From NCBI GenBank assembly GCA_900469445.1, contig UBXM01000033.1, positions 131,732 through 195,731 of the forward strand: DNA of 64,000 nt, given 5' to 3'. Origin of the DNA: Hyphomicrobiales bacterium (lineage in GTDB: Bacteria > Pseudomonadota > Alphaproteobacteria > Rhizobiales > Rhizobiaceae). The notes under the pieces are model-generated. The model searched no databases and was not told the origin of the DNA. It saw only the letters and a program-made list of their open reading frames with translations. Of the stretch, positions 30,737-55,328 are shown piece by piece (position 1 is the stretch's first letter; every line of letters begins with the position of its first letter). A program made the position numbers and the translations under genes.

Positions 30737-31744
30737 ATGCGCTTTTTCATTACCGGTACTGCAGGTTTCATCGGATTTCATCTGGCGCGCAAGCTGCTGC
30801 AGGATGGTCATGAGGTCTTAGGCTTCGACGGCATGACGCCCTATTACAGCCTTCGGCTGAAGGAGGCGCGCAATGCCGGGCTTGCGCAGTTCCCGTCATT
30901 CCGTTTCGTGCAGGGCATGCTGGAAGACAAGTCTCTGCTTGAAGAGACGGTCAAGACCTTCAAGCCCGACGTGATCGTCCATCTGGCCGCCCAGGCCGGT
31001 GTGCGTTACAGCCTCGAAAATCCCAAGGCCTATCTCGATTCCAACCTGATCGGCTCGTGGAATATTCTCGAGATCGCCCGCGAAATCGGTGTCGGGCACC
31101 TGATGCTCGCATCGACATCGTCCATCTACGGCGCCAATCCGAGCATTCCTTTCCGGGAAACGGACAAGGCCGACGAGCCTTTGACCTTTTACGCCGCCAG
31201 CAAGAAGTCGATGGAGGTGATGGCGCATAGCTATGCCCATCTCTACAAGGTTCCGACAACGGCTTTCCGCTTCTTCACGGTCTATGGCCCCTGGGGCCGG
31301 CCGGACATGGCTCTTTTCAAGTTCGTCAAGGCGATGCTCGATGACCGGGAAATCGAGATCTACGGCGAAGGCAGGATGAGCCGTGACTTCACCTATATCG
31401 ACGATCTGGTCGATTCCATTATCGACCTTTCGAACGTGCCGCCGTCCGAGGCCAATCGTGTTGCGAACGTCGATACGCTCTCAGTCGAAGGCCCCTTCCG
31501 CACGGTCAATCTCGGTGGCGGCCAACCGGTCGGGCTGCTCGATTTCATCGAAGTGATCGAAAGGGCCTTGGGTAAGCCGGCGAAGCGCAAGATGCTGCCG
31601 ATGCAGAAGGGCGATGTGCCCCGCACTTTCGCCAGCCCGGAACTGCTTCTGGCGTTGACGGGCCGCAAGCCGGAAACCGGCCTCGAAGAAGGTGTCGGCG
31701 CCTTCGTGCGCTGGTATCTGGACCATCGTTCCGAAATCGACTGA
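30737..31744 (+). CDS. NAD-dependent sugar-nucleotide epimerase, UDP-glucuronate 4-epimerase-like
   Basis: The 335-residue protein is an extended short-chain dehydrogenase with the GTAGFIG nucleotide motif (residues 7-13), the SSIYG region and the catalytic Y152-x3-K156. Overall it resembles rhizobial LspL/LpsL, which makes UDP-galacturonate for lipopolysaccharide. The substrate is inferred from similarity of pattern. A nucleotide-sugar 6-dehydrogenase about 14 kb away could supply a uronic acid substrate. Confidence 0.85.
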
Positions 31745-31961
31745 GTAGTGGTGCAAGGCCTGTTCATCCGGTAACGGCGTTATCACGTCTGCCGGAAAAG
31801 GCTTGTGCTCAAGGCTCTCGCATCCCAGTTCGGGGGCGCACTATCGTCCAAGACAGTATCGGCGGGATCGGTTAGCTACGATTTTGGCCGACTTGGATTC
31901 GCTTTTGAAAGACTTTATGTTGCCGCGAAAGACAGATCAGATGTTACCGAAGGTCAAGGGC

Positions 31962-33170
31962 ATGTCACAGGGTTTCAAAGATGCCCGCATCCTCATGTAC
32001 AGCCACGACACGTTCGGGCTCGGCCACATCCGCCGCTGCATGACCATCGCCAACCACCTGGTGGAAACCTTTCAGGGCGCGCATGTCCTGATCATTTCCG
32101 GTGCGACGATCGCGGGCGCCTTCGATTACCGTTCCCGTGTCGACTACGTGAAGATCCCGAGCGTGATCAAGCTGCGCAATGGCGACTACACGTCGATGGA
32201 CGAGCACATCAATCTGGAAGAGACGCTGGAGATGCGCCAGGCGATCATTCGCCAGACGGCGGAATCCTTCCAGCCGGATATCTTCATCGTCGACAAGGAG
32301 CCGTTGGGCCTGCGCCGCGAAGTGGAAGATACGCTCGTTTATCTGAAAAGCCGCGGCACGCTTCTGGTGCTTGGTCTGCGCGACGTCATGGATGCACCGC
32401 ATCTCCTGGATGCCGAATGGCGCCGTAACGATGTCATGGCCAAGATCGACCAGCTTTACGACCACGTCTGGGTCTATGGACCGCCGGATTTCCACGACCC
32501 GCTGACCGGTCTCGATGTACCGCCGTCGCTTCGTCGCAAGATGACCTTCGTCGGCTTCCTGCAGCGCAAGGCCTGGGCGAGCCGCACGACCTCTCTGCCG
32601 AAACGTGACGGTTATATTCTTGTGACGACTGGCGGCGGTGGTGATGGCTACGATCTCGTCCGCGACGTCATCAATGCTTATCAGGCTGATGCGACGTTGA
32701 CCGAGAAGGCGCTGATCGTACTCGGCCCTTATATGCCCGGTGAGCAGCGAACCGAATTGATCAAGGCGGCCGAGCCATATGACTGTCTCGAGGTCATCGA
32801 GTTCGACAACCGCATGGAAGACCTGATCGCCAATGCACGGGCGATCGTCGCCATGGGCGGTTACAACACCTATTGCGAGATCCTCTCCTTCGACAAACCG
32901 GCCTTGATCATTCCGCGCATGGTGCCGCGCCAGGAACAGTTGATCCGTGCGGTGCGGGCGACCGAACTGGGGCTCGTCGCCATGCTGCATCCCGATCATT
33001 CTTCCGATGGCTTGAGGCTTTCGGAGGCAATCAAGGAGCTGCTGCTGCGCGATCCGCCGTCGGTGACCGCACCCGATTACCGCCTCGAAGGCCTGCCCAA
33101 TCTTTCCGCCATCGTACAGGAATGGCTGGAGGGAAAACGCCCGGATTATCTCACCGTCGTCGAAAGCTGA
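31962..33170 (+). CDS. MurG-like glycosyltransferase (paralog A)
   Basis: The protein of about 402 residues has an N-terminal nucleotide-sugar-transferase-like domain opening with MYSHDTFGLGHIRRC. The C-terminal half contains TTGGGGDGYD and AMGGYNTYCEIL, where MurG/GT28-type enzymes bind the nucleotide sugar. I set the start at the ATG at 31962 because GAAGG is eight bases upstream; in-frame ATGs at 31917 and 31941 are possible. It ends only 2 bp from the convergent paralog B. Acceptor and donor are unknown. Confidence 0.82.
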   Translation: MSQGFKDARILMYSHDTFGLGHIRRCMTIANHLVETFQGAHVLIISGATIAGAFDYRSRVDYVKIPSVIKLRNGDYTSMDEHINLEETLEMRQAIIRQTAESFQPDIFIVDKEPLGLRREVEDTLVYLKSRGTLLVLGLRDVMDAPHLLDAEWRRNDVMAKIDQLYDHVWVYGPPDFHDPLTGLDVPPSLRRKMTFVGFLQRKAWASRTTSLPKRDGYILVTTGGGGDGYDLVRDVINAYQADATLTEKALIVLGPYMPGEQRTELIKAAEPYDCLEVIEFDNRMEDLIANARAIVAMGGYNTYCEILSFDKPALIIPRMVPRQEQLIRAVRATELGLVAMLHPDHSSDGLRLSEAIKELLLRDPPSVTAPDYRLEGLPNLSAIVQEWLEGKRPDYLTVVES

Positions 33171-33172
33171 TT

Positions 33173-34315
33173 TCAGCCGGCCTGGCCGAGCTGCTGGCGC
33201 AGCAATCGCGCCGTTTCCCGCGCGCCATCCATGTTGAGGTCGGGGAGCGCCTTGCCGCGCTGCATAAGTGCCGTTTCGATGCCGGCCGCAACCGCTTCGG
33301 GGGTGATTTCTGCTTCTTCGATATACTGCGCCAGACCTAGCTCGTTGAGCTTCACGGCGCGAGCGGTCTGTTCCGTTTCGCCGCCCGCTGCGAATGGCAC
33401 GAGGAGCGAGCCGCAGCCGGCTCTCAGCACATCGCAGACCGTATTGTAGCCGGCTTGCGAGATCGACAGCTCGGCACTGCCGAGCAGCTGCCGGAAATCG
33501 CTTCTGAAGCGGAATACATCCATATCCTTGCCGCCGTGCGACGCAAGTGCGTCGAAGCTTGCGGCATCGAGGTTAGGGCCGGTGATCACGCACCAGCGGC
33601 CGGGTGCGCCCATCAGGCTGCGGGCCGCAACGGCGGCATTCAGCAGTTTCTGCCCTACAGCACCGCCGCCGGCGGAAACCACCACCCGGTATTGCTCGGG
33701 TGAGGGAACCGGTGCCGCCGGTGCGACGAGACCGGTATAAAGGATCTTGTCCGCGATCTCGCTTGCCAGCGGAAACGTATCTTCGATCCGTGTCAGGTTC
33801 CGGTCGCCATGCACGAGCACGCGATGAAAGTGTTCCCTGACCAGCGCCACGGTCTCTTCGTCACGCCCCGGTTTCTTGTTCACCTGCAGGATGTCACGGA
33901 TCGAGGCGAAAAGCAGCGGTTTTGGCCGCATCGCCCTGATCGCGTCGAGAAACGGCAAAAGCTCGAACCGCATCTGCCTGCGGCCGAACGGGAATGCTTC
34001 GGTGATGACGATATCCGGCCGGGCCTCACCGAGCACCGCCAGCAACTGTTCCATGCGCTGGCGCTCGCCGTCTCCATCGAGCACGGTTCCGTTGATATCC
34101 TGCAGCCCCGAAAAGCCTTCGCGGGAGGTAACTTCAGGCATCAATCGGACATGCCGGATCCCAGGCCCGGGAAAACCGGGCACCGGCAGGCCACCCGTCA
34201 CCATGGTCACATCGAAACCGTCTTCCGCCAGAGCGGAGGCAACAAGGCTTGCCCGGGCGATATGACCGATCCCCAGCAGATGCTGAACATAAAAGAGAAC
34301 GCGCGGTGACGTCAT
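33173..34315 (-). CDS. MurG-like glycosyltransferase (paralog B)
   Basis: The 380-residue protein shares the layout of its convergent neighbour: FYVQHLLGIGHIAR near the N-terminus, VSAGGGAVGQ in the middle and SQAGYNTVCDVL in the C-terminal donor-binding half. The start at 34315 overlaps the stop of the upstream GT4 gene by 4 bases, which suggests a pair that acts in the same glycan pathway. Specificity cannot be read. Confidence 0.83.
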   Translation of the reverse strand: MTSPRVLFYVQHLLGIGHIARASLVASALAEDGFDVTMVTGGLPVPGFPGPGIRHVRLMPEVTSREGFSGLQDINGTVLDGDGERQRMEQLLAVLGEARPDIVITEAFPFGRRQMRFELLPFLDAIRAMRPKPLLFASIRDILQVNKKPGRDEETVALVREHFHRVLVHGDRNLTRIEDTFPLASEIADKILYTGLVAPAAPVPSPEQYRVVVSAGGGAVGQKLLNAAVAARSLMGAPGRWCVITGPNLDAASFDALASHGGKDMDVFRFRSDFRQLLGSAELSISQAGYNTVCDVLRAGCGSLLVPFAAGGETEQTARAVKLNELGLAQYIEEAEITPEAVAAGIETALMQRGKALPDLNMDGARETARLLRQQLGQAG

Positions 34316-35574
34316 GGTTCTCGGCGCTCCTTGATGTCCGAATAGGCCGATGAGAACAATCTCTCGAGGTCCGATATGCTGGTCCTGTGGTCGAAATGAC
34401 CGCGGACCTTCTCTTCCGCATTCCTGGCCATCCGGTCGCGCTCCAGCGGATTGCGGATGGCCTTTTCTATCGCCATGGCCAGTCCCTGCGGATCCTCCGG
34501 CTCGACCAGAAGGCCGTTCTCGCCATCGACGAACAGTTCCGGAATGCCGGAGATCGTTGTCGAGATGCAGAGGATGCGCTGGCTGGCAGCCTCGACAAGC
34601 ACGTTCGGCAACCCGTCGCGATCGCCATCCTTGCCAATGCGGCAGGGCAGGGCGAAGATGTCGGCCTCGCCATAACGCTGCAGCACCTCCTGCTGCGACA
34701 TGGCTCCATGCCAGCTGACGCGGTCGGACAGCCCGAGCGCTTCCGCAAGCGGCTTCAGGGTCTTGAGTTCGTCCCCCCCGCCGACATGATCGAGCTTCCA
34801 ATGCAGATCAGCGGGGAGCAGCGCCAGTGCCCGGAGCAGGATATCAAAACCCTTTTTCGGCACGGCGCGACCGACGGCAAGGAGCGCGATCGGGTCATCG
34901 GGATTGGAGCCGTCACGCGTGGCGGGCGCCCTCTCTGGAGAGGGAAAACGGCTGAGATTGAGGCCGTGATAGCTCAGATGCACTTTGCCTGGCTGATCGG
35001 AAAGCGTGCGAAGATGCTCCGCTCCTCCGCGTGTGCAGGTCACTGTCCAGCGGGCGTCGTCCAGCTTGTCGGAAAGCTCCCAGTCCGGGCTCGTCCATAT
35101 GTCCTTGGCGTGAGCGGAGACGGTGAAGGGTATATTCAGCAGCTGCGATGCATAGCGTCCGACCGAGGCCGGTGTATGGATGAAATGCACATGCAGCCAG
35201 TCGGCATCCTTCGGCCACTCGCGGGCAAGCACCAGCGCCTGTCCGAAACGGCGAAAACGGTTGCGGCTGATATCGCGCGGCAGATCCTTGAAAAATGCCT
35301 TGGCGGTCGCGCCGAAAGATGGCTTGCCGATCCAGTGAAACAGCGCCTTGGCGACCCTGATCGGCTCCTCGTGCAGATACTCCGGCAGATAATGGACGGG
35401 CGCTTCGATCTCGTCATGCACCGGATGCCGTTTTTTGTCGGTCGGCCGGCGCATAGACATCAGTTCGAGTTTGAAGCCGGCGAGTTCCAGCCCCCGCAAT
35501 TCCTGCGCAATAAAGGTCTCTGACAGGCGCGGATAACCCTTCAGCAGCACGACCATCTTTTTCGGTATGTTCAA
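34312..35574 (-). CDS. GT4-family glycosyltransferase
   Basis: The protein of 420 residues has the GT-B fold pattern: YPRLSETFI near the N-terminus, HVHFIHTPASV, the donor-loop segment VPKKGFDILLRAL and the C-terminal GLPNVLVEAASQ. It probably adds a sugar to a lipid-linked or surface glycan. I place the start at a TTG at 35574, five bases after AGGATCG; the frame is open farther upstream but would then overlap the permease gene. It is coupled to paralog B. Confidence 0.85.
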   Translation of the reverse strand: MNIPKKMVVLLKGYPRLSETFIAQELRGLELAGFKLELMSMRRPTDKKRHPVHDEIEAPVHYLPEYLHEEPIRVAKALFHWIGKPSFGATAKAFFKDLPRDISRNRFRRFGQALVLAREWPKDADWLHVHFIHTPASVGRYASQLLNIPFTVSAHAKDIWTSPDWELSDKLDDARWTVTCTRGGAEHLRTLSDQPGKVHLSYHGLNLSRFPSPERAPATRDGSNPDDPIALLAVGRAVPKKGFDILLRALALLPADLHWKLDHVGGGDELKTLKPLAEALGLSDRVSWHGAMSQQEVLQRYGEADIFALPCRIGKDGDRDGLPNVLVEAASQRILCISTTISGIPELFVDGENGLLVEPEDPQGLAMAIEKAIRNPLERDRMARNAEEKVRGHFDHRTSISDLERLFSSAYSDIKERREP

Positions 35575-35662
35575 AGTCGATCCTATGCGGTCCGTGACGG
35601 CCGATGCCTCGCGTGAGGGCCGGCCGGCAAAACCAGTATCCGCGTGCTTCTGCACGCGCAAG

Positions 35663-36838
35663 TCAGTGATAGGGGTCCGCCGCGTCTCGCAAGCCATCGC
35701 CCAGGAAGTTGAAGGCGAGGATGACGAGGATGACCGGAATGACCGGGATCAGAAGCCAGGGATAGAGCGCCACCACGTTGACCGTCCTCGCCTCTGTGAG
35801 CAGCACGCCCCAACTCGTCACCGGCGGCCTGAGACCCAATCCGAGAAAGCTCAGCGTCGTCTCGCCGAGGATCATGCCGGGAATGGTCAGCGTTGCGCTG
35901 GCGATAAGATGCGACATGAAACCGGGGATGAGATGCCGGCCGATGACCCGCCAGTGATTGGCCCCCATCAGTTGCGCGGCCATCACATAGTCTTCTTCGC
36001 GCAGCGCCAGCAGTTTGGAACGTACGGCGCGGGCAAGCCCCGTCCAGTCCAGCAGGCCCAGAATGAAGGTAATGCCGAGATAGATGACGAACGGGCTCCA
36101 GTCGACCGGCATGATGGCGGCAAGCGCCAGCCACAGCGGAATGCTCGGGATCGATTGCAGCACCTCGATGATGCGCTGTACCACCAGATCGAACTTTCCG
36201 CCCCAATAGCCCGCAAGCCCGCCGATCAGGATGCCCAGAACGAAGCTCGTGGTGATGCCGAGAAGGCCGATCGTCAGCGAAATCCGCGCGCCGTAAATCA
36301 CCCGCGACAGGACGTCTCGCCCAAGCCTGTCGGTTCCGAACAGGAACATCTGGCCACCTTCTGCCGGGCATACGAGATGACGCTCAGCGTCGATAAAGCC
36401 CCAGAACTGGTAGGGATCGCCCTTGCAGAAGAAGCGCAGTCGCTGCACCTGGTTGGGGTCGTCGCGATAGTCCCGCCGCAGATTTTCCATGTCGAGCGTC
36501 ATCGCCTGTCCATAGACGAATGGACCGACAAATTTGCCGTCATGAAACAGATGCACCGATTGCGGCGGCGCATAGATGTGATCCATGTTGCGCGTGTGAA
36601 GGTTATACGGCGCCAGAAACTCGGCGATAATGATCGACAGGTAGGCAAGCAGCAGGAATATGCCGGAATAGAGCGCCAGCTTATGGCGCTTGAAACGCCA
36701 CCACATCAGGCGAAGCTGCGAGGCCCGTTTGGCAAGCGGCACACCCTGGCCGGTCTTGTCGAAAGCGTAGGGGTCGAAAGGCGCCTCGGAAACGTAATGC
36801 GGCAGCGGCTGGCCGTCGGGGGGGAGTTGCATGCTCAT
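35663..36838 (-). CDS. peptide/oligosaccharide ABC transporter permease (DppC/OppC type)
   Basis: The 391-residue inner-membrane protein has a cytoplasmic N-terminus of about 50 residues, a large periplasmic loop (about 75-165, with two cysteines) and the DppC-type core with TDRLGRDVLSR, GANHWRVIGRHLIPG and FLGLGLRPP. It is the last gene of a binding protein-permease-permease operon coupled by 4-base overlaps, and pairs with the adjacent DppB-type subunit. Confidence 0.92.
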   Translation of the reverse strand: MSMQLPPDGQPLPHYVSEAPFDPYAFDKTGQGVPLAKRASQLRLMWWRFKRHKLALYSGIFLLLAYLSIIIAEFLAPYNLHTRNMDHIYAPPQSVHLFHDGKFVGPFVYGQAMTLDMENLRRDYRDDPNQVQRLRFFCKGDPYQFWGFIDAERHLVCPAEGGQMFLFGTDRLGRDVLSRVIYGARISLTIGLLGITTSFVLGILIGGLAGYWGGKFDLVVQRIIEVLQSIPSIPLWLALAAIMPVDWSPFVIYLGITFILGLLDWTGLARAVRSKLLALREEDYVMAAQLMGANHWRVIGRHLIPGFMSHLIASATLTIPGMILGETTLSFLGLGLRPPVTSWGVLLTEARTVNVVALYPWLLIPVIPVILVILAFNFLGDGLRDAADPYH

Positions 36839-41614: not shown

Positions 41615-41793
41615 CGGGCAGTTTTTCCTGGCATGCGACTCAGTAGAGCATCGCATTTTCGCATGACGGCAAAATCAAGTTCGTCGGAATGCATCTTTCG
41701 GCACCTGATCAGGTTGACGCTGGAACGGAATTGAACGTAGCGCAGAGCTATGATGATAGTCCATGCCATAAGAAGCCTGCCGGATAGCTGCCG

Positions 41794-42741
41794 ATGATTA
41801 ACGAACAAGACTATAAAAGGATGCTTGGTGAAGCCAAGTCGCTGATCCGGTGCGGGAGTTTTGCAGAAGCGCGCGATCTGCTGCAGCAAATTCAAGCGAA
41901 TGATCTGGGCAAAGACGATGCTTTGACGGCACTCGGCCTGCCAAGGCGGCTGCAATCGGCACTGTTGAAGCTGGCGAAAGCCGAAGGCGATGCGGTGGCA
42001 AGGAGCGGCTATCAGGTCCACCTCGTTCCGCCACCCCAAACGCTCGCGCGATATGGCGTCTTTTCACCGGCCGAGCAGGCAAGAATGGTCGAGTTGTCGC
42101 GCGTAACGGCTCCGCGATGCATTCACCAGATATGGCTCGGTTCAAGACCTGTCCCTCCGACGGTTGACGCCTGGGCAGCACATGCCAAGGAGAATGGCTA
42201 TCAGCATAAACTGTGGCGCGAAGCCGATCTTGCCGAAAATGGTTATGATCGGCACACAGCACTTCATCATATGCTGCAGCAAGGCGATTTTCCCGGCGCG
42301 GTAGACGTGGCTCGCTACATGATCCTGCGCGATCTCGGAGGCATATATCTCGATTGTGACTGGTATCCGGCCAGCAACACGGGAAGCTTTCACGATTTCC
42401 TGCCGCTGACGGGGCTTTCCGTCTTCGCAGAAGAGATCCCGCGCAACACCGGTGCCGGAAGTACGCTGTTTGCCAATTCCTTCATCGCAACGCCGGCAGG
42501 CAATCCGGTTTTCTCAAGATTGTGTGACGCGCTTGCGTCGGTGATAGAGGATCTGGGCGACGCTCCCGCATGGTGGTCGACCGGTCCGCTGATCTTCACC
42601 GTCGTCGCCCGGTCCGGCCCGGTCAGCCTTGCAGGAGCCGGGTTCGTTGCACCCTCCGCGCCTGCCGGAGCATCGCTTTTAGATGTTCAGGCCCAGGCAG
42701 CCGATGCCGAGGGCCTGCTCATCGCCTGGAAGCCCTGGTAG
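41794..42741 (+). CDS. GT32-like glycosyltransferase with DXD motif
   Basis: The 315-residue protein contains IHQIWLGSRPVPP (residues 110-122) and DVARYMILRDLGGIYLDCDW with the metal-binding D187-x-D189, the hallmark of the OCH1-like/GT32 sugar-transferase family. The first 70 residues are helical and separate. It is divergent from the ABC importer operon and ends 2 bp from the convergent deacetylase gene. The acceptor is unknown. Confidence 0.85.
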   Translation: MINEQDYKRMLGEAKSLIRCGSFAEARDLLQQIQANDLGKDDALTALGLPRRLQSALLKLAKAEGDAVARSGYQVHLVPPPQTLARYGVFSPAEQARMVELSRVTAPRCIHQIWLGSRPVPPTVDAWAAHAKENGYQHKLWREADLAENGYDRHTALHHMLQQGDFPGAVDVARYMILRDLGGIYLDCDWYPASNTGSFHDFLPLTGLSVFAEEIPRNTGAGSTLFANSFIATPAGNPVFSRLCDALASVIEDLGDAPAWWSTGPLIFTVVARSGPVSLAGAGFVAPSAPAGASLLDVQAQAADAEGLLIAWKPW

Positions 42742-42743
42742 GT

Positions 42744-43484
42744 TCAAGCGCCACTCATCAACTCGCGAACCGGAACCCATCGGCAGGCCGGCTGCCTGGC
42801 GGTCAGTTCGAAAAAGTCGTCAAGAAACGCCCAGACGGCATCGTCATGCACGAGATGGTGGGTGAGAATACCGAGGCTTGTTTTTCTACCGGTCCCGGCA
42901 TCGAGGCGGGCCGCAGCTTCGGCATAAAGCACCTCCATCGCGCGTCCCCCACGCGTCCCCCTCCAGTCGATGACATCGACATGCGTATTAACCAGGCGGA
43001 TCGGCGTCTCCACCCGCTCCGGGCCGAAAACGGACAGGGCTTCGTATCCGAGTGACGGTAGATGACCGAGAAGCGGCTGCGCGATACGGTTCCATGGCGG
43101 TACCAGCAAGGGCACCGCGCGATCGCCAAACAGGGTCGTGATCCGCTCCAGCCCTTCCGCCAGGCGGGCGAGCACGGCTGCCTCGCCACGATGAAGGCCG
43201 AGTTCCTGCTTTTTCTCCGATGCCGGCGCGTGGTTCATATGATCCCAACCATGCACGGCGACGGATATCAGCGGCAATTCCTGCAGAAGTTCTGCCAGTG
43301 CCGTTGTGGCATGGACGGGGATGGCAGCGATCGTCAGCGGCGCATCCCAGCGTTTCGACAGGCCGAGAAGCTGCGACAGCGCTGGGGTCGGTTCAATGGC
43401 GTCGTCGTCCCGCAGCCACAGCTGAACCATCCTGCCTTCTTCGGCATAGGCGTCGAGCATTTCGATGAAGTGTTGTCTGCTCAT
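42744..43484 (-). CDS. polysaccharide deacetylase-like (NodB-fold) protein
   Basis: The 246-residue protein shows the NodB-fold set in order: LRDDDA with the aspartate pair near residue 25, VHGWDHMNH as the metal site near 78, PPWNR near 130 and a C-terminal LTHHLVHD. Enzymes of this fold remove N- or O-acetyl groups from polysaccharides. It lacks a signal peptide, so it would act in the cytoplasm on a precursor or lipid-linked sugar. It lies 4 bp after the GT4 gene and is probably cotranscribed with it. Confidence 0.83.
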   Translation of the reverse strand: MSRQHFIEMLDAYAEEGRMVQLWLRDDDAIEPTPALSQLLGLSKRWDAPLTIAAIPVHATTALAELLQELPLISVAVHGWDHMNHAPASEKKQELGLHRGEAAVLARLAEGLERITTLFGDRAVPLLVPPWNRIAQPLLGHLPSLGYEALSVFGPERVETPIRLVNTHVDVIDWRGTRGGRAMEVLYAEAAARLDAGTGRKTSLGILTHHLVHDDAVWAFLDDFFELTARQPACRWVPVRELMSGA

Positions 43485-43488
43485 CGCG

Positions 43489-44589
43489 TCATCTCACATG
43501 GCTATCCAGGATACGGACCAGGATACGGCGCAGACTTTCCGCCGCGCCGCTGATTGACCGTTCTCCGGTCGCAAAAATCCGTGCCTCTTTCGCGAGGCGA
43601 GATCTGGTTTCAGCGTCGGACAACAAGTGGCCGATCGCTTCTGCAAAGGCATGTCTGTCGCCGGGCGGCGTAAGCAAACCTGTCCTGTCGTGTTCCACGA
43701 CCTCCGGAACGCCCGCAATCGCCTCGGCAACGACGGGAAGGCCGGCAGCCTGCGCTTCCAGATAGGCAAGCCCGTATGCTTCCCCATGCCCCGGCCAGAG
43801 GAATATGGACCCGCGTGAAAGCAGCTCGGCGATATCCTCCTGCTGAAGCGCTCCCAGCCATTCTATCCGCTCTAGGCCGAGTGGCGCAAAAGCCCGTTCC
43901 ACTTCCGGCCGGCATTCCCCATCCCCGGCGATGGAAAGCGTCCACGGCAGATGCTGGATGAGGCGAAGGCTTTCGGCCAGCGCCTGATAGCTGGAAAGCT
44001 TGTCGCCCGGCCGCATCATCGCCACGGTGACCAGCCGTCCCGGTTCCGGGGCTGGTGTGCGCTGTAGATAGGGTTCGCTATCGATAAAGGGCGCGATCAG
44101 TTCGAGCCGGGCCTCCGGCACCGCCGCCTTCAATCCATCCCGGTCGCGGCGTGTGAAGCACAGATTGACTGCAGCATGTCTGAGGCTGTCGAGCAGCATC
44201 TCCTGCGACGTCCGCCATGCCCCTATGTTCCGGCGCGAAGAATAAGAAGCTTCCGCATTGATCAAGGGGATACCGAAATGCCGCGCCAGCGCCGGGCCGA
44301 GAAGATCAGGCGCCTTGTAATAGGGGTGATAGGTGAACCAGAGGTCCGGCGCGGATGACCCGGAATGTTCGGCCGTGATACGCTCGATCTCCCGCGCGGC
44401 ATCCGCCACGTTTGCTTCCAAAGCATCCGCCATCTCGGATGAACGCATGAAACTGCGCATTTCGGAGGCGATGAAAACCTCGTGCCCGAGGCTTGTCAGT
44501 GCGCGAACCAAAAGCCGCGCCATCAGCCTGTCGCCGGAAGGGACTGGATGATTGGGCGATTTCAGCGGCGAATAGAACAGGATTTTCAT
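43489..44589 (-). CDS. GT4-family glycosyltransferase
   Basis: The 366-residue protein is a GT-B glycosyltransferase with the N-terminal SGDRLMARLLVRAL, a donor loop around GEAYGLAYLEAQAAGLPVVAE (E-x7-E motif in the glycine-rich region) and VPEVVEHDRTGLL. It is distinct in sequence from the GT4 enzyme at 34-35 kb. Together with the deacetylase gene it forms a two-gene unit that reads away from the dehydrogenase gene. Confidence 0.87.
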   Translation of the reverse strand: MKILFYSPLKSPNHPVPSGDRLMARLLVRALTSLGHEVFIASEMRSFMRSSEMADALEANVADAAREIERITAEHSGSSAPDLWFTYHPYYKAPDLLGPALARHFGIPLINAEASYSSRRNIGAWRTSQEMLLDSLRHAAVNLCFTRRDRDGLKAAVPEARLELIAPFIDSEPYLQRTPAPEPGRLVTVAMMRPGDKLSSYQALAESLRLIQHLPWTLSIAGDGECRPEVERAFAPLGLERIEWLGALQQEDIAELLSRGSIFLWPGHGEAYGLAYLEAQAAGLPVVAEAIAGVPEVVEHDRTGLLTPPGDRHAFAEAIGHLLSDAETRSRLAKEARIFATGERSISGAAESLRRILVRILDSHVR

Positions 44590-44697: not shown

Positions 44698-46038
44698 ATG
44701 ACCGATACTTCCCTTTCCTCGACGCTTCATGCGAAGATCACAGCACGTACGGCAAAAGCCGGCGTCGTGGGGCTTGGCTATGTCGGATTGCCGTTGGCGA
44801 TGGCCTTCGGCCGGGCAGGGTTCTCGGTTACCGGTTTCGACATCGACCCATCCAAGATCGAATTCATCGATCGCCGGGAAAGCTATATCGAAGCGGTGCC
44901 GACGGACGTGCTGAAAGCCGAATGCGAGGCTGGCCGGTTCGTCGCCACCTGCGACTTCGATCGTCTGGGCGAATGCGATATCGTGGCGATCTGCGTGCCG
45001 ACGCCGCTGACGGCGCATCGTGATCCCGACCTCTCCTATGTGGCGAAAACGGCAGAAGCGATCGCCAGGACCTTGCGCCCGGGCCAGCTGATCGTGCTGG
45101 AATCGACCACCTATCCCGGCACCACCGATGAAGTCGTGAAGCCGATACTCGAAAAGACCGGCCTGAAGTCCGGTACCGATTTCTTCCTCGGTTATTCGCC
45201 CGAACGTGAAGACCCGGGCAACCGTCAGTTCCATACGGCGAGCATCCCGAAAGTCGTCGCCGGTGATGGTGAGGCGGCGGCCAGCCTGATGCAGGCCTTT
45301 TACGGCGCAACCGTATCGACCATCGTGCCGGTATCGACCACCGCCACGGCCGAAGCCGTAAAGCTTACGGAAAACATTTTCCGCGCGGTCAATATCGCCC
45401 TCGTCAACGAGTTGAAGCTCGTCTACGACGCCATGGGCATCGACGTGTGGGAAGTCATCGATGCGGCCAAATCCAAGCCTTTCGGTTACATGCCCTTTTA
45501 TCCGGGCCCCGGTCTCGGCGGTCACTGCATCCCGATCGATCCATTCTACCTGACCTGGAAATCACGCGAATTCGAAACCCCGACGCGGTTCATCGAGCTG
45601 GCCGGCGAGATCAATACGGCAATGCCGCACCATATCGTGACGCGGCTGGCAGAGGCGCTGGATATCCGCAGCGGCAAGGCGCTGAGCCGCTCCAGGGTCC
45701 TGCTGATCGGCCTTGCCTACAAGAAGAACGTGCCCGACATCCGCGAAAGCCCGTCATTGCGCCTGATGGAACTGATCGAACGCCGCGGCGGATCGGCCGA
45801 TTATTTCGATCCCTACGTCCCGGAAATCCCCTCGACGCGCGAATATGCCGAACTGAAGGGCCGCCGATCGATGGACTGGAGCGAAAGCGCCCTGAAAGCC
45901 TATGATGCGGTCGTCATCGCAACGGACCACGACGACGTCGATTATGAAGCGATCGCAAGGCATGCTCCCTTGATTGTCGATACGCGCAATGTCTTTGCCC
46001 GCAGGGGAATTTCCGCGGACACCATCGTCAAAGCCTGA
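44698..46038 (+). CDS. nucleotide-sugar 6-dehydrogenase (WecC/TviB/WbpA type)
   Basis: The 446-residue protein oxidises C6 of a UDP-sugar to the acid with two NAD. It has VGLGYVGLPLA (residues 24-34), the GYSPERE motif and the catalytic cysteine C277 in GLGGHCIPIDPFY. The subfamily with PEREDPG and the VPTPLT segment acts on UDP-GlcNAc or related sugars in Vi antigen and O-antigen synthesis, so UDP-N-acetylhexosaminuronate is the likely product. The methyltransferase gene follows after 15 bp. Confidence 0.9.
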   Translation: MTDTSLSSTLHAKITARTAKAGVVGLGYVGLPLAMAFGRAGFSVTGFDIDPSKIEFIDRRESYIEAVPTDVLKAECEAGRFVATCDFDRLGECDIVAICVPTPLTAHRDPDLSYVAKTAEAIARTLRPGQLIVLESTTYPGTTDEVVKPILEKTGLKSGTDFFLGYSPEREDPGNRQFHTASIPKVVAGDGEAAASLMQAFYGATVSTIVPVSTTATAEAVKLTENIFRAVNIALVNELKLVYDAMGIDVWEVIDAAKSKPFGYMPFYPGPGLGGHCIPIDPFYLTWKSREFETPTRFIELAGEINTAMPHHIVTRLAEALDIRSGKALSRSRVLLIGLAYKKNVPDIRESPSLRLMELIERRGGSADYFDPYVPEIPSTREYAELKGRRSMDWSESALKAYDAVVIATDHDDVDYEAIARHAPLIVDTRNVFARRGISADTIVKA

Positions 46039-46053
46039 GATACTGGAAACCCC

Positions 46054-46536
46054 ATGAGCCGTCTCGATACCTTCATCAATCGCATGTCCGCCCAGCGCGA
46101 CATCCTCAATCATGTCGCCCGTGATCTGGGCCTTCCGCCGCAAGGGGATGTTCTGGAAGTCGGGCTGGGCAATGGGCGAACCTATAGCCATCTGCGCGAA
46201 TTGTTCGCCGACCGCCGCGCGATTGCCTTTGACCGGGCGATGAATGCGCATCGCAGCTCGGCCCCCCATGAAGACGATTTCGTCATGGGTGAAATCAACG
46301 AGACGGGTTTGAGATTCGCGGGAACCGGCGCGGCGCTCGTCCATGCCGATATCGGCACGGGTTATCCGGATAAGGATGCCATCACCTTGTCATGGCTGCC
46401 GCAGATGGTTGTCGCCATGCTCCAGTCAGGCGGTTATGCCGTCAGCGGCCTGCCGCTTGAGCACCCGGAACTCGACGAGCTTCCACGCCTGCCCACGGTC
46501 AACGAAGGCAGGTATTTCATGTATCGCAAGCTGTGA
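46054..46536 (+). CDS. small class I SAM-dependent methyltransferase
   Basis: The 160-residue protein carries a SAM-binding motif I, VLEVGLGNGRTYSHLRE, near residue 33, an acidic post-I residue (AFDR) and a compact Rossmann fold. The size matches a family of short S-adenosylmethionine methyltransferases found in rhizobia. Its target, perhaps a glycan residue, is unknown. It is likely cotranscribed with the dehydrogenase and is convergent with the cyclic-nucleotide-binding gene. Confidence 0.8.
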   Translation: MSRLDTFINRMSAQRDILNHVARDLGLPPQGDVLEVGLGNGRTYSHLRELFADRRAIAFDRAMNAHRSSAPHEDDFVMGEINETGLRFAGTGAALVHADIGTGYPDKDAITLSWLPQMVVAMLQSGGYAVSGLPLEHPELDELPRLPTVNEGRYFMYRKL

Positions 46537-46548
46537 TGGTAAGGCCGA

Positions 46549-47004
46549 TCAGGCCTTCTGCAGAGCGCGAACCTGGTCCAGCTCGGAAGACGTCAGCCGC
46601 AGTCGCTCGGCTATTGCGCGCGTCATCTTCATGGTCATGCCGGGGCAATCGTCCATGATGCGGAACAGATAATCCTTGTTGATCTTCAAGGCTTCGACCA
46701 CACCTTCAGCCTGAACGGTGGAGCTGCGCGGTCCATCGCACAGAAGCGATATGTCGCCGACGATCGAGTTCGGTCCGCGTTCGCTGACCTTGACCGGGCC
46801 ATCCGGGGTGCTCACGAGAAAATCGACGGTGCCGCTGAGAATGAAGTAAGCGGAATCTCCGCTGTCGCCTTGGGTAAAGAGACGCTGGCCAGCCTTGAAC
46901 GTCACGCGCTCGGAAGCGAACGCGAGGAGTTTAAGCTTGCACGTATCCACTTCCGCAAAATACGGAAGTTTCCGCAGCAGCTGGACTTCATCACATAGCA
47001 ACAT
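46549..47004 (-). CDS. small cyclic-nucleotide-binding-domain protein
   Basis: The 151-residue protein is nearly only a cyclic-nucleotide-binding domain: a beta roll with GDSGDSAYFILSGTVDF and a phosphate cassette GDISLLCDGPRSSTV, whose arginine binds the cyclic phosphate. The glutamate usual in this cassette is replaced by aspartate. There is no helix-turn-helix, so it is not a Crp-type regulator. The start is the ATG at 47004; GGCGGAAGAG precedes it. Position 31 bp downstream of the degenerate ABC gene suggests that the two products work together. Confidence 0.85.
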   Translation of the reverse strand: MLLCDEVQLLRKLPYFAEVDTCKLKLLAFASERVTFKAGQRLFTQGDSGDSAYFILSGTVDFLVSTPDGPVKVSERGPNSIVGDISLLCDGPRSSTVQAEGVVEALKINKDYLFRIMDDCPGMTMKMTRAIAERLRLTSSELDQVRALQKA

Positions 47005-47035: not shown

Positions 47036-49759
47036 CTAAGCCACCAGAGCCTTGAAGGTTCCGCTCTCCTGCTCAAGGGTCTCATACGAGCCTTCTTCGA
47101 GGATTGCGCCTCCGTCAAACATTACAACCTTGTCAAACAAACGTGACAAAGAGATATTTGACAAGACCCAGATTACAGCTGGATCATTCTCTTGTTGACC
47201 CAGAAATGCAAGCACGTTTTGAACAATTTCCTCCTGGGTGTGTCTTTCCAGCCCCGGAAGAGGTTTGTTGAACACGTAATAATCGGACCGCCGAATGAGC
47301 GCGCGGGCAAGATTTAGTTTGCGCCGCTGGATCGGTGTCAGGCGACGTCCGCCAGCGCCAATATCGTAATCAAGTCCGGCCTTTAGAAGCTGATTGGCAA
47401 AGCCAAGCTCGCGGGAAACACTGCCTGCCAGGGTGCGAAGCTCAAGAATGCCATCCGCATTGCTGTTGCTCAGCTTGCCAAAGACGATGTTTTCACGAAG
47501 TGTTGCGACCGAAACGTATTTGTCAGGGTCATACCGCTCGATGAGCTCCCGCAGATGAGCCGGCAGCTCGGTGTAAAACAGTTCGCGCGAGCCCACGATC
47601 TTGTCTTGCAACTCGCTCGTCAGAATACCCAGACGGTAGCGCGGCTCGATATATTCCAGCGTGAGCCGGATAAACGCCTTGTCGGCGCCCGATAGCCGGA
47701 AATTGGCCGGCTTGGGTTCGTTCTTCCGTTGCAGCAGGCCCTGATAAAAGCTGATGTCTTCCGCCGAAAGTGTCGTGACCTGACGGAAGAAGGGGTGGTC
47801 TGCCGGAAGGCCGCCAAAGATCTCGACGAGGTTTCTGGCGACTGTCCGTCCCATTTCCACGAACGGGCGTTGCAGCCCCACCTTGTGGAGCGCGGTATAG
47901 AAATGCTCGCTGGACAGCAGTTCGTTGTCCGGATTGAGAGGCGCCATTGTCGCCCCGAAGAGCAGGTTTTCGGCAACTGTGGCTTGGGAATTGTATCCGT
48001 CCGGTTGGAACGGGATGACGAGAGATTCCATGCCCAATTCGTTCATCCGCGCGCGCAGCGCATGGCGCATCTCGACAACCCGCGTGGCAAATTCCGGATC
48101 CTCGTCCGGATTGATTGTCGAATGAAGCGCGAGCTCGAGCACGTCGTCGGTCAGCTGCACGGCATCCAGTGCTGCCAGAAGCGACTTCTGCAAATCCTCC
48201 TTGGCGCCGTTGCCAAGCGCCGCATAGCTGTAATCCACCCAGCCGGCTCTGATGTCGAGATGCGGATTGCCCGCCTTCTTGGCTTCGCGGATTTCCCACA
48301 GCCGCTGCCGCATCTCCTTGCCCTCATACGCATATCTCTTAACGGGCGCGTGTTTCAGGCCGTAGAGAAGATTGTCCTTCAGGCTTCCATGGAAGAAGTA
48401 GCTGTCCGTCGAAACATAGGAAATATGGCGCCCGGTGACGGATTCCGGAAGCTCTCTTATGTCCTGGTCGCCAAGGCAGATCCTGCCGCTCGATGGCCAT
48501 GCGAGCCGGCCGAAGGCTTCCGCCATCGCTTCGGCGCCGCGGCCCGTATGATCCACCATGGCAACCGTTTCGCCTCGATCGATCTTCAGCGTGACATGAT
48601 CGACGACTTTCGCGCCGCTATCGTCGTTAAGGGATACCGAAACGGCATGAAGTGTTTCGCGCTTCGGCCGGGCGGATGCCGGCGTGAGGGTGTGAATGGC
48701 CGGGTTGATGAGATCCTCGACCTCGAAATTCTCGAAGACCTGCTCGTATTTCACCTGCACGTCCTGGCGTGCCTGATCCCAGTCGATCAGTTCCTTCAGC
48801 GGTCCCGGCAGATCCTTGTAGGCATTGATCACGGCCACGAGCTGACCGACGTCGAGCGTGCCGCGCAGCGTCAGGTAACCGCCGATGAGATAGAACAGGA
48901 ACGGGGTTACCTGCGACAGGAAGTTGTTGAGAAATTTGACCAGGAACTTCCACTGGTAAAGATCGTAGCGGATCCGGTAGATTTCGCCGAGCCGGCTCGC
49001 CACGTCGGCGCGCTCGAAATTCGACGTATCATAGGCATGGATCGTCCCCAGCCCTTCGACAACCTCATTCACCTTGCCGGCCAGTCGCCGCGCCGTGATC
49101 TGTCGCTGTCGGCCAAGCTCGATCAGCCTGCGGCGCATTTTCGGAATGATGATGACCTGGATCGCGACCATGAAAGCCGCGACCATGCCCAGCCAGAAGT
49201 TCTGCAGGATGATGAAGAACAGGGCGGCCAGCGCCTGACCGCCGAGAAGTGCAGGCTGGACGAAGGCATCCCCCGTGAAACCGCCGAACGGCTCCACTTC
49301 GTCCTTGATCATGCTGGCGATTTCGGCGCCGTTCAGGCTCTTTGCGTGGCGGGGCGGAAAACGCAAGACGCGGTCAACGAGCTCGAAGCGGATACGGCGC
49401 AGCAGGCGCTCGCCGAGCCGGCCTTTATAGGTATTGATGTAATATTTGAATGCACCGTTGATGATCACCAGAAGCAGGAAGACGCTGCTGAGTGCGACCA
49501 GGGTTTGCATACGGTCGAGCGGAAAGCCGCCGAAGCCGAACGTATAGTTCGTGAACGGAATGGTAAGCGAGAAATCCAGAAAATTCTGGGTGGTGCTCAG
49601 ATCCTCGAAACCCTGGCCCTGGATCGGGCCGTTGATGATCTGTTTGGGAAGGTCGAAGGCAAGGAAATAGGGGACCATCGACAAGGCGACGATCATCAGG
49701 ATGAAGACCTGCTGCGGCCTCGTATGCGTCCAGATATAACGTAGCAGCGTTTTCTGCAT
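47036..49759 (-). CDS. ABC-exporter-like membrane protein with degenerate, expanded nucleotide-binding half
   Basis: The 907-residue protein has an ABC exporter membrane domain (helices between about 15 and 325, including AGKVNEVVEGLGTIHAYD as coupling region). The C-terminal ATPase half is about 540 residues, roughly twice normal. The Walker A position reads VDHTGRGAEAM (402-412) without the lysine; the signature position reads LTPIQRRKLNLARAL (807-821); the Walker B position reads DYYVFNKPL without acidic residues; the H-loop reads VLSNIS without histidine. Three motifs of type D-x-Y-x5-[ST]-[LV]-x-[DE]-N-[LI]-[LV]-[YF]-G occur near 451-467, 586-602 and 745-761. It probably cannot hydrolyse ATP. 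The role is unknown; sensing or scaffolding is a guess. Confidence 0.9.
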   Translation of the reverse strand: MQKTLLRYIWTHTRPQQVFILMIVALSMVPYFLAFDLPKQIINGPIQGQGFEDLSTTQNFLDFSLTIPFTNYTFGFGGFPLDRMQTLVALSSVFLLLVIINGAFKYYINTYKGRLGERLLRRIRFELVDRVLRFPPRHAKSLNGAEIASMIKDEVEPFGGFTGDAFVQPALLGGQALAALFFIILQNFWLGMVAAFMVAIQVIIIPKMRRRLIELGRQRQITARRLAGKVNEVVEGLGTIHAYDTSNFERADVASRLGEIYRIRYDLYQWKFLVKFLNNFLSQVTPFLFYLIGGYLTLRGTLDVGQLVAVINAYKDLPGPLKELIDWDQARQDVQVKYEQVFENFEVEDLINPAIHTLTPASARPKRETLHAVSVSLNDDSGAKVVDHVTLKIDRGETVAMVDHTGRGAEAMAEAFGRLAWPSSGRICLGDQDIRELPESVTGRHISYVSTDSYFFHGSLKDNLLYGLKHAPVKRYAYEGKEMRQRLWEIREAKKAGNPHLDIRAGWVDYSYAALGNGAKEDLQKSLLAALDAVQLTDDVLELALHSTINPDEDPEFATRVVEMRHALRARMNELGMESLVIPFQPDGYNSQATVAENLLFGATMAPLNPDNELLSSEHFYTALHKVGLQRPFVEMGRTVARNLVEIFGGLPADHPFFRQVTTLSAEDISFYQGLLQRKNEPKPANFRLSGADKAFIRLTLEYIEPRYRLGILTSELQDKIVGSRELFYTELPAHLRELIERYDPDKYVSVATLRENIVFGKLSNSNADGILELRTLAGSVSRELGFANQLLKAGLDYDIGAGGRRLTPIQRRKLNLARALIRRSDYYVFNKPLPGLERHTQEEIVQNVLAFLGQQENDPAVIWVLSNISLSRLFDKVVMFDGGAILEEGSYETLEQESGTFKALVA

Positions 49760-50027: not shown

Positions 50028-50747
50028 TCAGGCCTCCTTGCGCAGGAAGCGCGGGATCAGGACCATGGCTGCAAAGGACATGATTGCCAGAGAGAACCAC
50101 GTCAGCGCATAGACGAGGTGGCTGTTTCTGAACTGAATGACGGTCAGGCCCCCGACCGGATAGCCGCCGTCATTTGCCGTTGCATCGGCATCGATGAAAT
50201 AGGGGGCGAGATCGGCAAGCCCCTTGTTTTCACCGATCGCATCCACGTCGCGGGAATACCAGTTCCCCGCCGCGGGATTGTTGCTGCGAAGAAACGCCCC
50301 GCCGGGTTCTGTAAGGCGCAGCAGCCCCGTGACTTTGACCTCGCCCTGAGGCTGGCCTTGCGCCCGGGATGCCGGATCACGCCGATCCGGCGGTACGAAG
50401 CCGCGATTGACCAGAACCGTTTCGCCCTCGGCGGAGGTGAGCGGTGTGACGACCCAGAAGCCGGGGCCTCTTTCCGTCACAGCCTGAACGAGGGCCTCGC
50501 GTGAATTGTCGAAAGTTCCGGCAAGCGTGACATGCCGATATTCGGCATCGCCAGGCGCGATCGCCGGCCATTCTGCCTTCGTCGGAGGCGCGACGGCTTC
50601 GGCATGGACACGGGCATCGACGCGGGCAATCAGGTCGAGCTTCCAGAAGAGCCGCTGGACCTGCCAGCTGCCGAGCGCGGTGAAGACGAGGGCCGAAAAA
50701 AGCAGAAACGCCCGAAAGCCAAGATATGATTTCACGGGCGTTTCCAT
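50028..50747 (-). CDS. SURF1-family oxidase assembly protein
   Basis: SURF1 proteins assist heme insertion into subunit I of heme-copper oxidases. The 239-residue protein has two membrane segments at the ends (about 10-28 and 210-228) and a periplasmic domain between them with GSWQVQRLFWK near the first helix and LVNRGFVP in the middle, as in the family. It follows cyoD after 58 bp, so it most likely serves the quinol oxidase. Confidence 0.92.
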   Translation of the reverse strand: METPVKSYLGFRAFLLFSALVFTALGSWQVQRLFWKLDLIARVDARVHAEAVAPPTKAEWPAIAPGDAEYRHVTLAGTFDNSREALVQAVTERGPGFWVVTPLTSAEGETVLVNRGFVPPDRRDPASRAQGQPQGEVKVTGLLRLTEPGGAFLRSNNPAAGNWYSRDVDAIGENKGLADLAPYFIDADATANDGGYPVGGLTVIQFRNSHLVYALTWFSLAIMSFAAMVLIPRFLRKEA

Positions 50748-50805
50748 TTCTTAAAATATGTAAGCCAGTCCGTCAGGTCTGGATCGAGGTAGCCTTAGAG
50801 CGACC

Positions 50806-51207
50806 TCAAGGCAAGTTCTTCATCATCTCCGGCGACATGACCATCATGTTCGTGTTGAGATGATGCATGACCCACAGCGAGCCGATCAGCGCGATCGCCA
50901 CGATGATGACCGTGAAGATCAGTGCCATCATCGTCCAGCCGCCTTCCGACTTCGTGTTCATGTGCAGGAAGTAGACCATGTGGACGACGATCTGGATCGC
51001 GCCGATGATCATGATCGCTGCAATGGTGGCAACCTTGCTGTCGAGCACGTCACCCATGACCAGCCAGAACGGGATAGCCGTCAGGATCACCGACAGGATG
51101 AAGCCCGTCATGTAGCTCTTGAACGAACCGTGTCCGGCTTCGTGGCCATGGCTATGGCCGTGATGGGCTTCGTGCGCATCTTCGTGCGAGGTGGAGTTGG
51201 TGGTCAT
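50806..51207 (-). CDS. cyoD: cytochrome o ubiquinol oxidase subunit IV
   Basis: CyoD is the small accessory membrane subunit of the bo-type quinol oxidase. The 133-residue protein has a histidine-rich N-terminus and three membrane segments, the last ending with the IGSLWVMHHLN motif. The start at 51207 overlaps the cyoC stop by 4 bases. The histidine-rich tail is longer than that of enterobacterial CyoD and might bind metal, which is a guess. Confidence 0.95.
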   Translation of the reverse strand: MTTNSTSHEDAHEAHHGHSHGHEAGHGSFKSYMTGFILSVILTAIPFWLVMGDVLDSKVATIAAIMIIGAIQIVVHMVYFLHMNTKSEGGWTMMALIFTVIIVAIALIGSLWVMHHLNTNMMVMSPEMMKNLP

Positions 51208-51827
51208 CCGACGACTCCCATGAGATAGACGACAGAGAATACGCCGATCCAGACGACGTCGAGGAAGTGCCAGAACATCGACAGGCACATCAGGCGGCGG
51301 CGGTTTTCGTGGATCAGGCCATGCTTGGAAACCTGAACCATCAGCGTCACCAGCCAGATGATGCCGAAGGTGACGTGCAGACCGTGCGTGCCGACCAGCG
51401 TGAAGAAGGCCGACAGGAACGCCGAACGCTGCGGCGTCGCACCTTCATGGATCATGTGATAGAACTCATAGAGTTCGATACCCAGGAAGGCGAGGCCGAA
51501 AAGGCCGGTAATGCCGAGCCAGAACAGGGTCTCCTGCTTGGCGCCGCGTTCCATCTGCAGCATCGCAAACCCGTAGGTGATCGACGAGAACAGCAGCATG
51601 GCGGTGTTGATTGCCACGAGCTTCAGGTCGAACAGGTCGGCCGGCGAAGGGCCGGCCGCATAATTGCGGCCGAGCACGGCGTAGGTCGCGAACAGCGTCG
51701 CGAAGATGAGGCAGTCGCTCATCAGGTACAGCCAGAACCCGAGGTTCGTGCTGCCTTCCGGATGATGGTCTTCCTCGAGATAGAATTGCGGCTTTTCCGC
51801 AGATTGGCTCTGAATATTGCTGCTCAT
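51204..51827 (-). CDS. cyoC: cytochrome o ubiquinol oxidase subunit III
   Basis: CyoC is the five-helix subunit III of the quinol oxidase. The protein of 207 residues has LGFWLYLMSDCLIFATLFATY, the GFAMLQMERG loop and HFLDVVWIGVFSVVYLMG at the end. A GTG two codons upstream overlaps the cyoB stop as GTGA and is an equally plausible start. I chose the ATG because AGG lies seven bases before it. Confidence 0.95.
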   Translation of the reverse strand: MSSNIQSQSAEKPQFYLEEDHHPEGSTNLGFWLYLMSDCLIFATLFATYAVLGRNYAAGPSPADLFDLKLVAINTAMLLFSSITYGFAMLQMERGAKQETLFWLGITGLFGLAFLGIELYEFYHMIHEGATPQRSAFLSAFFTLVGTHGLHVTFGIIWLVTLMVQVSKHGLIHENRRRLMCLSMFWHFLDVVWIGVFSVVYLMGVVG

Positions 51828-51829
51828 TG

Positions 51830-53833: not shown

Positions 53834-53877
53834 GGGACAACCCGTTCATTGATGTCATACGACGCAAAGCGCCAGGT

Positions 53878-55011: not shown

Positions 55012-55328
55012 TGATCTGCTCAAATTTGCTTTTTATCTAGTTCGCCTATCGGAGCGTTGCTCCGATCTCCATGAGGTGTTTCGTCGCAGTGCTACAATTT
55101 TTCGCACTGCAAATCACCACCTGCTCCATTTCGATGGAGGGCGGCCCTGCGGCGCGCAATCTAGTCCATAAAGTTGACAGAAGACATACCTTATCGCGCG
55201 AAACCTCACGATTGTGGCAAAATTTGCTAATTTTCGAATTTTCACAAATTCACAGTTGAAATCTTGATTGACAGCAAGTGCGGCCAACATACTCATTGTT
55301 GCAATGACGCGAAGGAGGAACGTTAGTC
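55012..55328. promoter_or_regulatory. divergent control region between cyoABCD and the MFS gene
   Basis: This 317-bp AT-richer gap must hold the promoters of both units. A perfect palindrome ATCGGAGC-GTT-GCTCCGAT lies at 55048-55066, 37 bp upstream of cyoA, and could be an operator or leader hairpin. TTGACA at 55268-55273 is a full -35 hexamer for the MFS gene, with only a poor -10 match about 16 bases later. No clear FNR/FixK box was found. Confidence 0.5.

Follow-up and report, generated by a model that had tools for sequence, protein, structure and literature searches.

ATP-binding cassette (ABC) exporters of the homodimeric MsbA and Sav1866 type (ABCB-like) carry an exporter membrane domain followed by a nucleotide-binding domain (NBD). 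The same arrangement is found in the protein treated here, a pseudo-exporter encoded at 47036..49759 on the minus strand of the window, which is the whole 64,000-nucleotide stretch of DNA analyzed (Hyphomicrobiales bacterium, GenBank assembly GCA_900469445.1, contig UBXM01000033.1, positions 131,732 to 195,731). The predicted NBD of this protein matches those of exporters at Z scores of about 26-27; however, it differs from MsbA and Sav1866 in lacking the catalytic motifs, in carrying an NBD insert of about 300 residues and in having a cyclic nucleotide (cNMP)-binding partner. Its best NCBIfam match is MsbA_lipidA (TIGR02203), at only 148.7 bits against a curated cut-off of 602. Exporters with a degenerate site in one half are well known and are treated in the accessible portion of a review (PMC7756269). 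TmrAB, TM287/288, TAP, CFTR and SUR all keep the ABC fold despite non-canonical residues, as the window protein is predicted to do, and the structural matches of its NBD include TmrAB, TAP1 and SUR2. In those proteins, however, one site stays active, whereas the window chain has every motif lost.

The partner protein shares with the CRP/FNR regulators a cNMP-binding fold and an intact phosphate-binding cassette, but it lacks their C-terminal helix-turn-helix. The HCN and CNG cyclic-nucleotide-gated channels are membrane proteins with a cytosolic cNMP-binding domain and a voltage-gated-channel pore. A cNMP-binding domain is likewise joined to the pseudo-exporter, by fusion or by neighborhood; the membrane part here is instead an ABC-exporter domain, and its gating is a proposal.

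In its placement of an ABC exporter alongside glycosyltransferases, the locus resembles the operon of Sinorhizobium meliloti MsbA2 (SMb21191), which concerns an unknown polysaccharide according to the accessible portions of PMC3687685 and PMC12239276. The msbA2 operon fragment maps to around 938 kb of pSymB and the pseudo-exporter homolog to 842-844 kb of the strain 2011 pSymB; identity with msbA2 was rejected, since some 95 kb would separate the loci, provided that coordinates are comparable between the two strains. SMb20813, named the S. meliloti msbA homolog in the accessible text of PMC10945364, may be the present homolog. SMb20804 and SMb20805 affect the K-antigen (PMC5539429, accessible portion), their relation to the pseudo-exporter locus not being established, and pRL110056 is listed as required for root colonization in the accessible part of PMC11103875, a tag that could not be mapped to the locus. 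No description of the family and its glycosyltransferase was found in the open-licence PMC literature, as judged from titles and abstract openings.

Loss of the Catalytic Residues

The open reading frame of the pseudo-exporter runs from ATG to TAG (49759..47036, minus strand) and encodes 907 residues. The exporter membrane domain (residues 1-345) is recognized by Pfam ABC_membrane (PF00664) over residues 84-311 (E 2.3e-17, 64 bits against a cut-off of 28). It is followed by the N-terminal part of the NBD (residues 365-480; 48320..48667), a helical insert (residues 481-785; 47405..48319) and the C-terminal part of the NBD (residues 786-907; 47039..47404), all on the minus strand. ABC_tran (PF00005) gives a partial match to residues 387-492 (E 8.5e-07, 30.1 bits against a cut-off of 25). 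HMMER alignment to solved ABC exporters identifies the same two domains. These matches bear out the preliminary description of the gene, which had read an exporter membrane domain and an ATPase-like region in one intact frame of 907 codons.

Motif positions were assigned by HMMER alignment to the solved ABCB protein ABCB4, which puts each dead motif where the preliminary description had placed it. In the N-terminal part, the Walker A Lys-Ser is replaced by A409-E410 (within VDHTGRGAEAM) and the Q-loop Gln by T451. In the C-terminal part, LSGGQ reads LTPIQ, the Walker B Asp is N831, the catalytic Glu is K832 and the H-loop His is S867 (within VLSNIS). None of the eight canonical catalytic residues is present. 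The ATPase fold is predicted to be kept in an AlphaFold2 model built from 34 input sequences (mean predicted local distance difference test [pLDDT] 79.1, predicted template modeling score 0.73). Because the predicted domain superposes on the ATPase domain of ComA (3vx4_D; Z 27.3, 240/240 residues, root-mean-square deviation 2.5), both the fold and the spacing around the motifs, which had been described as kept, appear to be retained.

The survey of the family aligned 217 loci, which comprise 210 distinct proteins; the motif columns are occupied in 207 of these, 97 of them rhizobial and 110 more distant. Among the rhizobial proteins, 88 have none of the eight canonical residues and nine have one, a Gly of the signature. 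Not one of the 97 possesses the Walker A Lys, the Walker A Ser/Thr, the Q-loop Gln, the Walker B Asp, the catalytic Glu or the H-loop His. More specifically, every one of the 97 has an acid at 410, Asn at 831 and Arg or Lys at 832, as do all 104 rows when duplicates are counted; these replacements are fixed in the clade and go beyond chance. The more distant members retain from zero to six of the eight residues and none has all eight; Asp831, for example, is kept in 18 of 110. On a membrane-domain tree of 117 rows, a quick tree with many weak forks, the minimum number of state changes is 21 for the Lys, 13 for the Asp, 19 for the Glu and 19 for the His. Judged from these residues, the ATP site is labile in the family as a whole and has been lost throughout the rhizobial clade. 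The rhizobial-clade ATPase domain very probably neither binds ATP in the canonical way nor hydrolyzes it, and an absence of ATP use in this clade is strongly implied by sequence. The earlier conclusion that the loss of all motifs leaves no ATP-driven transport is supported to this extent, within the rhizobial clade.

Distribution and Selection

The family is almost confined to Alphaproteobacteria within the sampled genomes of its phylum. A match was found in 32 of 398 genomes of the phylum sample, 31 of them in the same class and one outside it (G519), the latter with the membrane domain only. In the class sample, 132 of 385 genomes have a match at E 1e-60. Closer to the window, a kin set of 30 genomes (18 of its own genus and 12 others) contains a family member in 17, namely 14 of the 18 and three of the 12, at identities of 32-97%. 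A scan of GTDB species genomes confirmed at least 499 pattern-matching stretches as relatives; it used two patterns, so that one gene may count twice, and the best 80 of these at least 499 loci were kept.

The pseudo-exporter gene is under strong purifying selection. Against four near relatives the ratio of nonsynonymous to synonymous substitution rates (dN/dS) is 0.025-0.055 over its full length and 0.007-0.032 within the dead C-terminal part of the NBD; against two farther relatives, where synonymous sites are near saturation, it is 0.10 and 0.27. Of the 217 aligned rows, 212 are near full length.

The window's own genome (G000, contig C61:24237-26945, locus L022) and several relatives carry another full-length copy, which is about 50-55% identical and likewise catalytically dead; in one genome (G015, locus L027) the second copy is split into two frames. 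Antisense to the pseudo-exporter lies an open frame of 671 codons (47729-49744, plus strand), which shows no sign of being a gene.

The Cyclic-Nucleotide-Binding Partner

The pseudo-exporter has a conserved cNMP-binding partner. In the window this is a stand-alone protein of 151 residues without a helix-turn-helix (46549..47004, minus strand), whose likely ATG, an inferred start, lies 31 bp past the stop codon of the exporter gene. At the 217 loci, the cNMP gene is located at most 400 bp downstream on the same strand in 182, is fused to the exporter C-terminus in 13, lies elsewhere in 11 and could not be found in the remaining 11, part of which are loci with short flanks. Counted by distinct protein (n = 210), these figures are 176, 13, 11 and 10. 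Because at most 34 residues follow the domain match (median 6, 206 loci), the partner has no helix-turn-helix.

A phosphate-binding cassette with Gly, Glu or Asp, and Arg is the motif of cyclic-nucleotide receptors. In the window protein and those of 206 other loci this cassette is intact, with Gly in 207 of 207 rows, Glu in 190 and Asp in 15 (205 of 207), and Arg in 204 of 207. The residue directly after the cassette Arg is Thr in 172 of the 207 rows, and by the selectivity of PKG and CNG proteins a Thr at this place hints at cyclic GMP (cGMP). By that analogy the sensor family hints at cGMP, although the window copy has Ser. The accessible portion of PMC10127613 has no bearing on the cGMP preference of the partner, and that of PMC4681086, which concerns cGMP and cyst exopolysaccharide, offers no link to the pseudo-exporter family.

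An adenylate/guanylate cyclase gene is found near the homologs of S. meliloti (L219:1742-3091) and Rhizobium johnstonii 3841 (L220:29504-30847). However, because a cyclase match occurs in only 18 of the 154 loci with long flanks and nowhere in the window, the cyclase is not a fixed part of the locus. One S. meliloti record labels the pair 'ABC transporter ATP-binding protein' and 'Crp/Fnr family transcriptional regulator', an annotation that would mislead on both genes.

Linkage to Glycan Genes

The pseudo-exporter is linked to genes of glycan synthesis. Its homolog on pRL11 of R. johnstonii 3841 is flanked by counterparts of three glycosyltransferases of the window and of the methyltransferase, and that on pSymB of S. 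meliloti by counterparts of one glycosyltransferase of the window and of the dehydrogenase. Linkage was counted at 154 loci with at least 3.5 kb of flank on both sides (74 rhizobial, 69 of other families and 11 of the window's own genus); a GT28 or GT4 match lies near the pseudo-exporter in 69 of the 74, 43 of the 69 and two of the 11, respectively.

Co-occurrence was then counted in the same 385 class genomes, with kinship ignored and the R. johnstonii GT28 protein as query. The exporter and the GT28 ortholog are both present in 125 genomes, the exporter only in seven, the glycosyltransferase only in two, and neither in 251 (phi 0.95). The two genes are at most 600 bp apart in 85 of the 125 genomes and 0.6-20 kb apart in six. 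For the exporter and the methyltransferase family PF12692 the corresponding counts are 98, 34, three and 250 (phi 0.79). The capsule family PF05159, taken as a control, gives 37, 95, 25 and 228 (phi 0.23).

In the window, the gene tail to tail with the cNMP gene encodes an S-adenosylmethionine-dependent methyltransferase (PF12692, Methyltransf_17; 46054..46536, plus strand), preceded by a member of the UDP-glucose/GDP-mannose dehydrogenase family (44698..46038, plus), which would supply nucleotide sugars. A GT4-type glycosyltransferase (43489..44589, minus) lies beside a conserved neighbor of 246 residues (42744..43484, minus) that has no Pfam match at E 0.01 and looks like a polysaccharide deacetylase by eye only. 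A glycosyltransferase with a DXD sugar-binding region follows (41794..42741, plus; Gly_transf_sug, 25 bits against a cut-off of 23). Further away are a second GT4-type enzyme (34312..35697, minus), 65% identical to an enzyme encoded next to the homolog of R. johnstonii 3841, two GT28_C-type enzymes (33173..34444, minus, start uncertain; 31803..33170, plus, 67% identical to its R. johnstonii counterpart) and a nucleotide-sugar epimerase of the NAD-dependent epimerase family (30737..31744, plus).

The same region holds a peptide-type ABC importer set (35663-41656) of two permeases, a solute-binding protein and a double ATPase, as judged by eye and synteny, and 52 of the 74 rhizobial loci have the gene for the importer binding protein close to the pseudo-exporter. 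On the other side of the pseudo-exporter, SURF1-like and cytochrome o ubiquinol oxidase genes were recognized by eye (50028-55023); cyoABCD and SURF1 are likewise found near the R. johnstonii homolog.

The Insert and the Membrane-Domain-Only Homologs

The insert of about 300 residues (481-785) is mostly helical and lies between the Q-loop and the signature. Within it, two stretches (about 589-603 and about 747-762) look like the segment of the Q-loop (455-468). HHalign scores the pair of insert copies at 99%, and either copy against the Q-loop segment at 90-92%. Folded alone, the insert has a pLDDT of 76.3 and no Foldseek match at E 0.001 or below. Its best seven VIA-align rows are ABC ATPase segments at Z 4.0-4.9, values too weak alone that are consistent with the HHalign repeats. 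The insert may have arisen by duplication of the helical part of the ATPase domain itself. Three frames (L213:4534-7122, L237:5941-8580 and L242:4072-7119) combine an insert-bearing pseudo-ATPase domain like that of the window with a strongly diverged membrane domain, and match the family model mainly over the insert and the C-terminal part.

At six loci (L215, L216 and L232-L235) the homolog consists of the membrane domain only, in frames of 360-425 residues, among them L235:2197-3276 (minus strand), L215:5725-6948 (plus) and L216:5926-7200 (minus). Four genomes (G136, G408, G734 and G737) possess both such a gene and a full-length copy, while in G519, whose locus L234 begins at a contig end, and in G353 no full-length copy was found. 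The G353 gene (L235), in a genome of 1.6 Mb, is arranged head to head with genes resembling GT28 and GT4; this locus has no cNMP match, and NBD sequences searched against the 2.2 kb downstream gave a best E of 0.13. Cation-efflux and copper-chaperone-like proteins are encoded beside L215 and L216, as judged by eye.

Across 212 full-length members, 64 columns are conserved to 95% or more, and the six short homologs retain 48 of them. The other 16 columns are less well kept; nine fall within residues 98-150 and seven at positions 159, 163, 205, 232, 283, 337 and 345. By comparison with known exporters, several of these probably lie in or near the cytoplasmic loops that contact the NBD. The weaker retention of such contact columns suggests that the pseudo-ATPase domain of the full-length members is still mechanically coupled to the membrane domain.

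Interpretation and Alternatives

The reading given the most weight here, in which we place about even confidence, is that the protein is an ATP-independent pseudo-exporter, probably controlled by cyclic AMP (cAMP) or cGMP via its partner, that serves a conserved glycan pathway. The pseudo-ATPase domain would be a mechanical and regulatory module docked on the membrane domain; it would read the state of the small cNMP partner, adjacent or fused, and pass that state to the membrane domain. The latter would in turn handle, hold or gate a glycan or lipid-linked glycan made by the GT28 and GT4 enzymes and the methyltransferase of the locus. The constraint on the gene, its cNMP partner and its glycan linkage are observed and the fold is predicted; we infer that the protein touches the cNMP protein directly, what its substrate is, and that it gates or scaffolds instead of pumping. 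The preliminary description had allowed for a receptor, channel, scaffold or lipid-handling role, which proves too broad; the gene context points more narrowly to a membrane component that belongs to a glycan locus and is linked to cyclic nucleotides.

Several observations weigh against this reading. The 110 more distant members keep Lys409 in 66 cases, Glu832 in 56 and His867 in 32, so that the ancestor may have used ATP, or some members may bind it. Among the long-flank loci, 26 of 69 from other families lack a linked glycosyltransferase, as do nine of 11 from the own genus, all nine being second copies, and the GT28 gene is on another contig in 25 of the 125 genomes and more than 20 kb away on the same contig in nine. 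The co-occurrence counts ignore kinship, and the control family PF05159 is itself weakly associated with the exporter (p 9e-6). The family is absent in four of the 18 own-genus genomes (G001, G002, G008 and G014), and no cNMP gene was found at the full-length loci L015, L190 and L193, which have ample flank. In four own-genus genomes, a canonical exporter whose Walker A and LSGGQ are intact is encoded on the same strand at a distance of 169-212 bp. Lastly, the structural model is weak (pLDDT below 50) at residues 154-172, 318-338, 343-346 and 607-611.

A more specific form of the ATP-independent pseudo-exporter can be put forward tentatively. A cNMP sensor, probably favoring cGMP, would have taken over conformational control from the ATP engine. 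The protein would then be an alphaproteobacterial flippase or channel that is gated, works without ATP and serves a lipid-linked glycan, and the 410/832 charge pair of the rhizobial proteins (acid at 410, base at 832) would replace the nucleotide. Through such a charge swap an internal ion pair may stand in for the nucleotide, a hypothesis that rests mostly on one clade: the base is at 409 or at 832, and at both in one of 217 rows.

It is rather unlikely that the protein is an ATP-independent glycosyltransferase scaffold, in which the membrane domain anchors and orders the enzymes but moves nothing and the cNMP protein sets the assembly. The co-occurrence with GT28 and PF12692, the position of GT28 within 600 bp in 85 of 125 genomes, the membrane-domain-only lineage and the loss of the ATP site would all suit such a scaffold. 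However, conservation is highest in the membrane domain, whose mean majority fraction within the rhizobial set is 0.83, compared with 0.64-0.69 for the other parts of the protein; a mere anchor should have little need of this.

An unusual use of ATP, for example binding without hydrolysis or catalysis with residues from the insert, is unlikely. The Walker A Lys and the catalytic Glu kept by many distant members (66 and 56 of 110) and the tight constraint on the C-terminal part of the NBD among near relatives speak for it, but all 97 rhizobial proteins have lost six residue types together and carry an acid where phosphate or magnesium would sit.

Quite unlikely, too, is that the protein is the degenerate half of a heterodimeric exporter, in which a canonical half-transporter provides the active ATP site for a pair that continues to pump. 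To our knowledge, the known degenerate exporter halves keep the Walker A Lys, which counts against this explanation, and a composite site would need the Walker A or the signature from the pseudo-exporter chain, both of which are gone in the rhizobial clade. A search with one query protein (E 1e-20, frames of at least 300 residues) found a canonical exporter within 1 kb on the same strand at six of 217 loci, in four own-genus genomes (L008/L037, L009, L010 and L011/L036, paired numbers being the same genes), and somewhere in the flank at 25 of the 154 long-flank loci. These cases, and the familiarity of exporters with one degenerate site (PMC7756269, accessible portion), favor a heterodimer; the canonical neighbor is, however, missing at 211 of 217 loci, and the search of adjacent genes found no canonical partner half beside the window gene. 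An obligate neighboring partner is thus unlikely; a partner encoded away from the locus would have escaped this search. The existence of membrane-domain-only homologs also argues against a heterodimer.

That the gene is a decaying paralog of a working exporter is highly improbable and was rejected: distant homologs with more intact motifs and one broken second copy (G015, L027) would fit decay, but dN/dS is 0.025-0.055, 212 of 217 rows are near full length and the replacement classes are identical in 97 of 97 rhizobial proteins. The preliminary description had taken intact homologs as a sign of simple decay; distant homologs do keep up to six of the eight residues, but the constraint on the clade of the window tells against decay there.

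Implications

Dead ABC sites are familiar from exporters in which the other site of the pair still works. Here a bacterial family of half-exporters retains its architecture under strong selection and has, by its residues, lost the ATP machinery, completely so in the rhizobial clade. The ATP-independent pseudo-exporter thereby offers a tractable test case for what the ABC transporter fold can do without ATP. Its association with a cNMP-binding protein makes it a candidate for a non-transcriptional output of cAMP or cGMP in bacteria, and its gene context points to a little-studied bacterial surface-sugar system.

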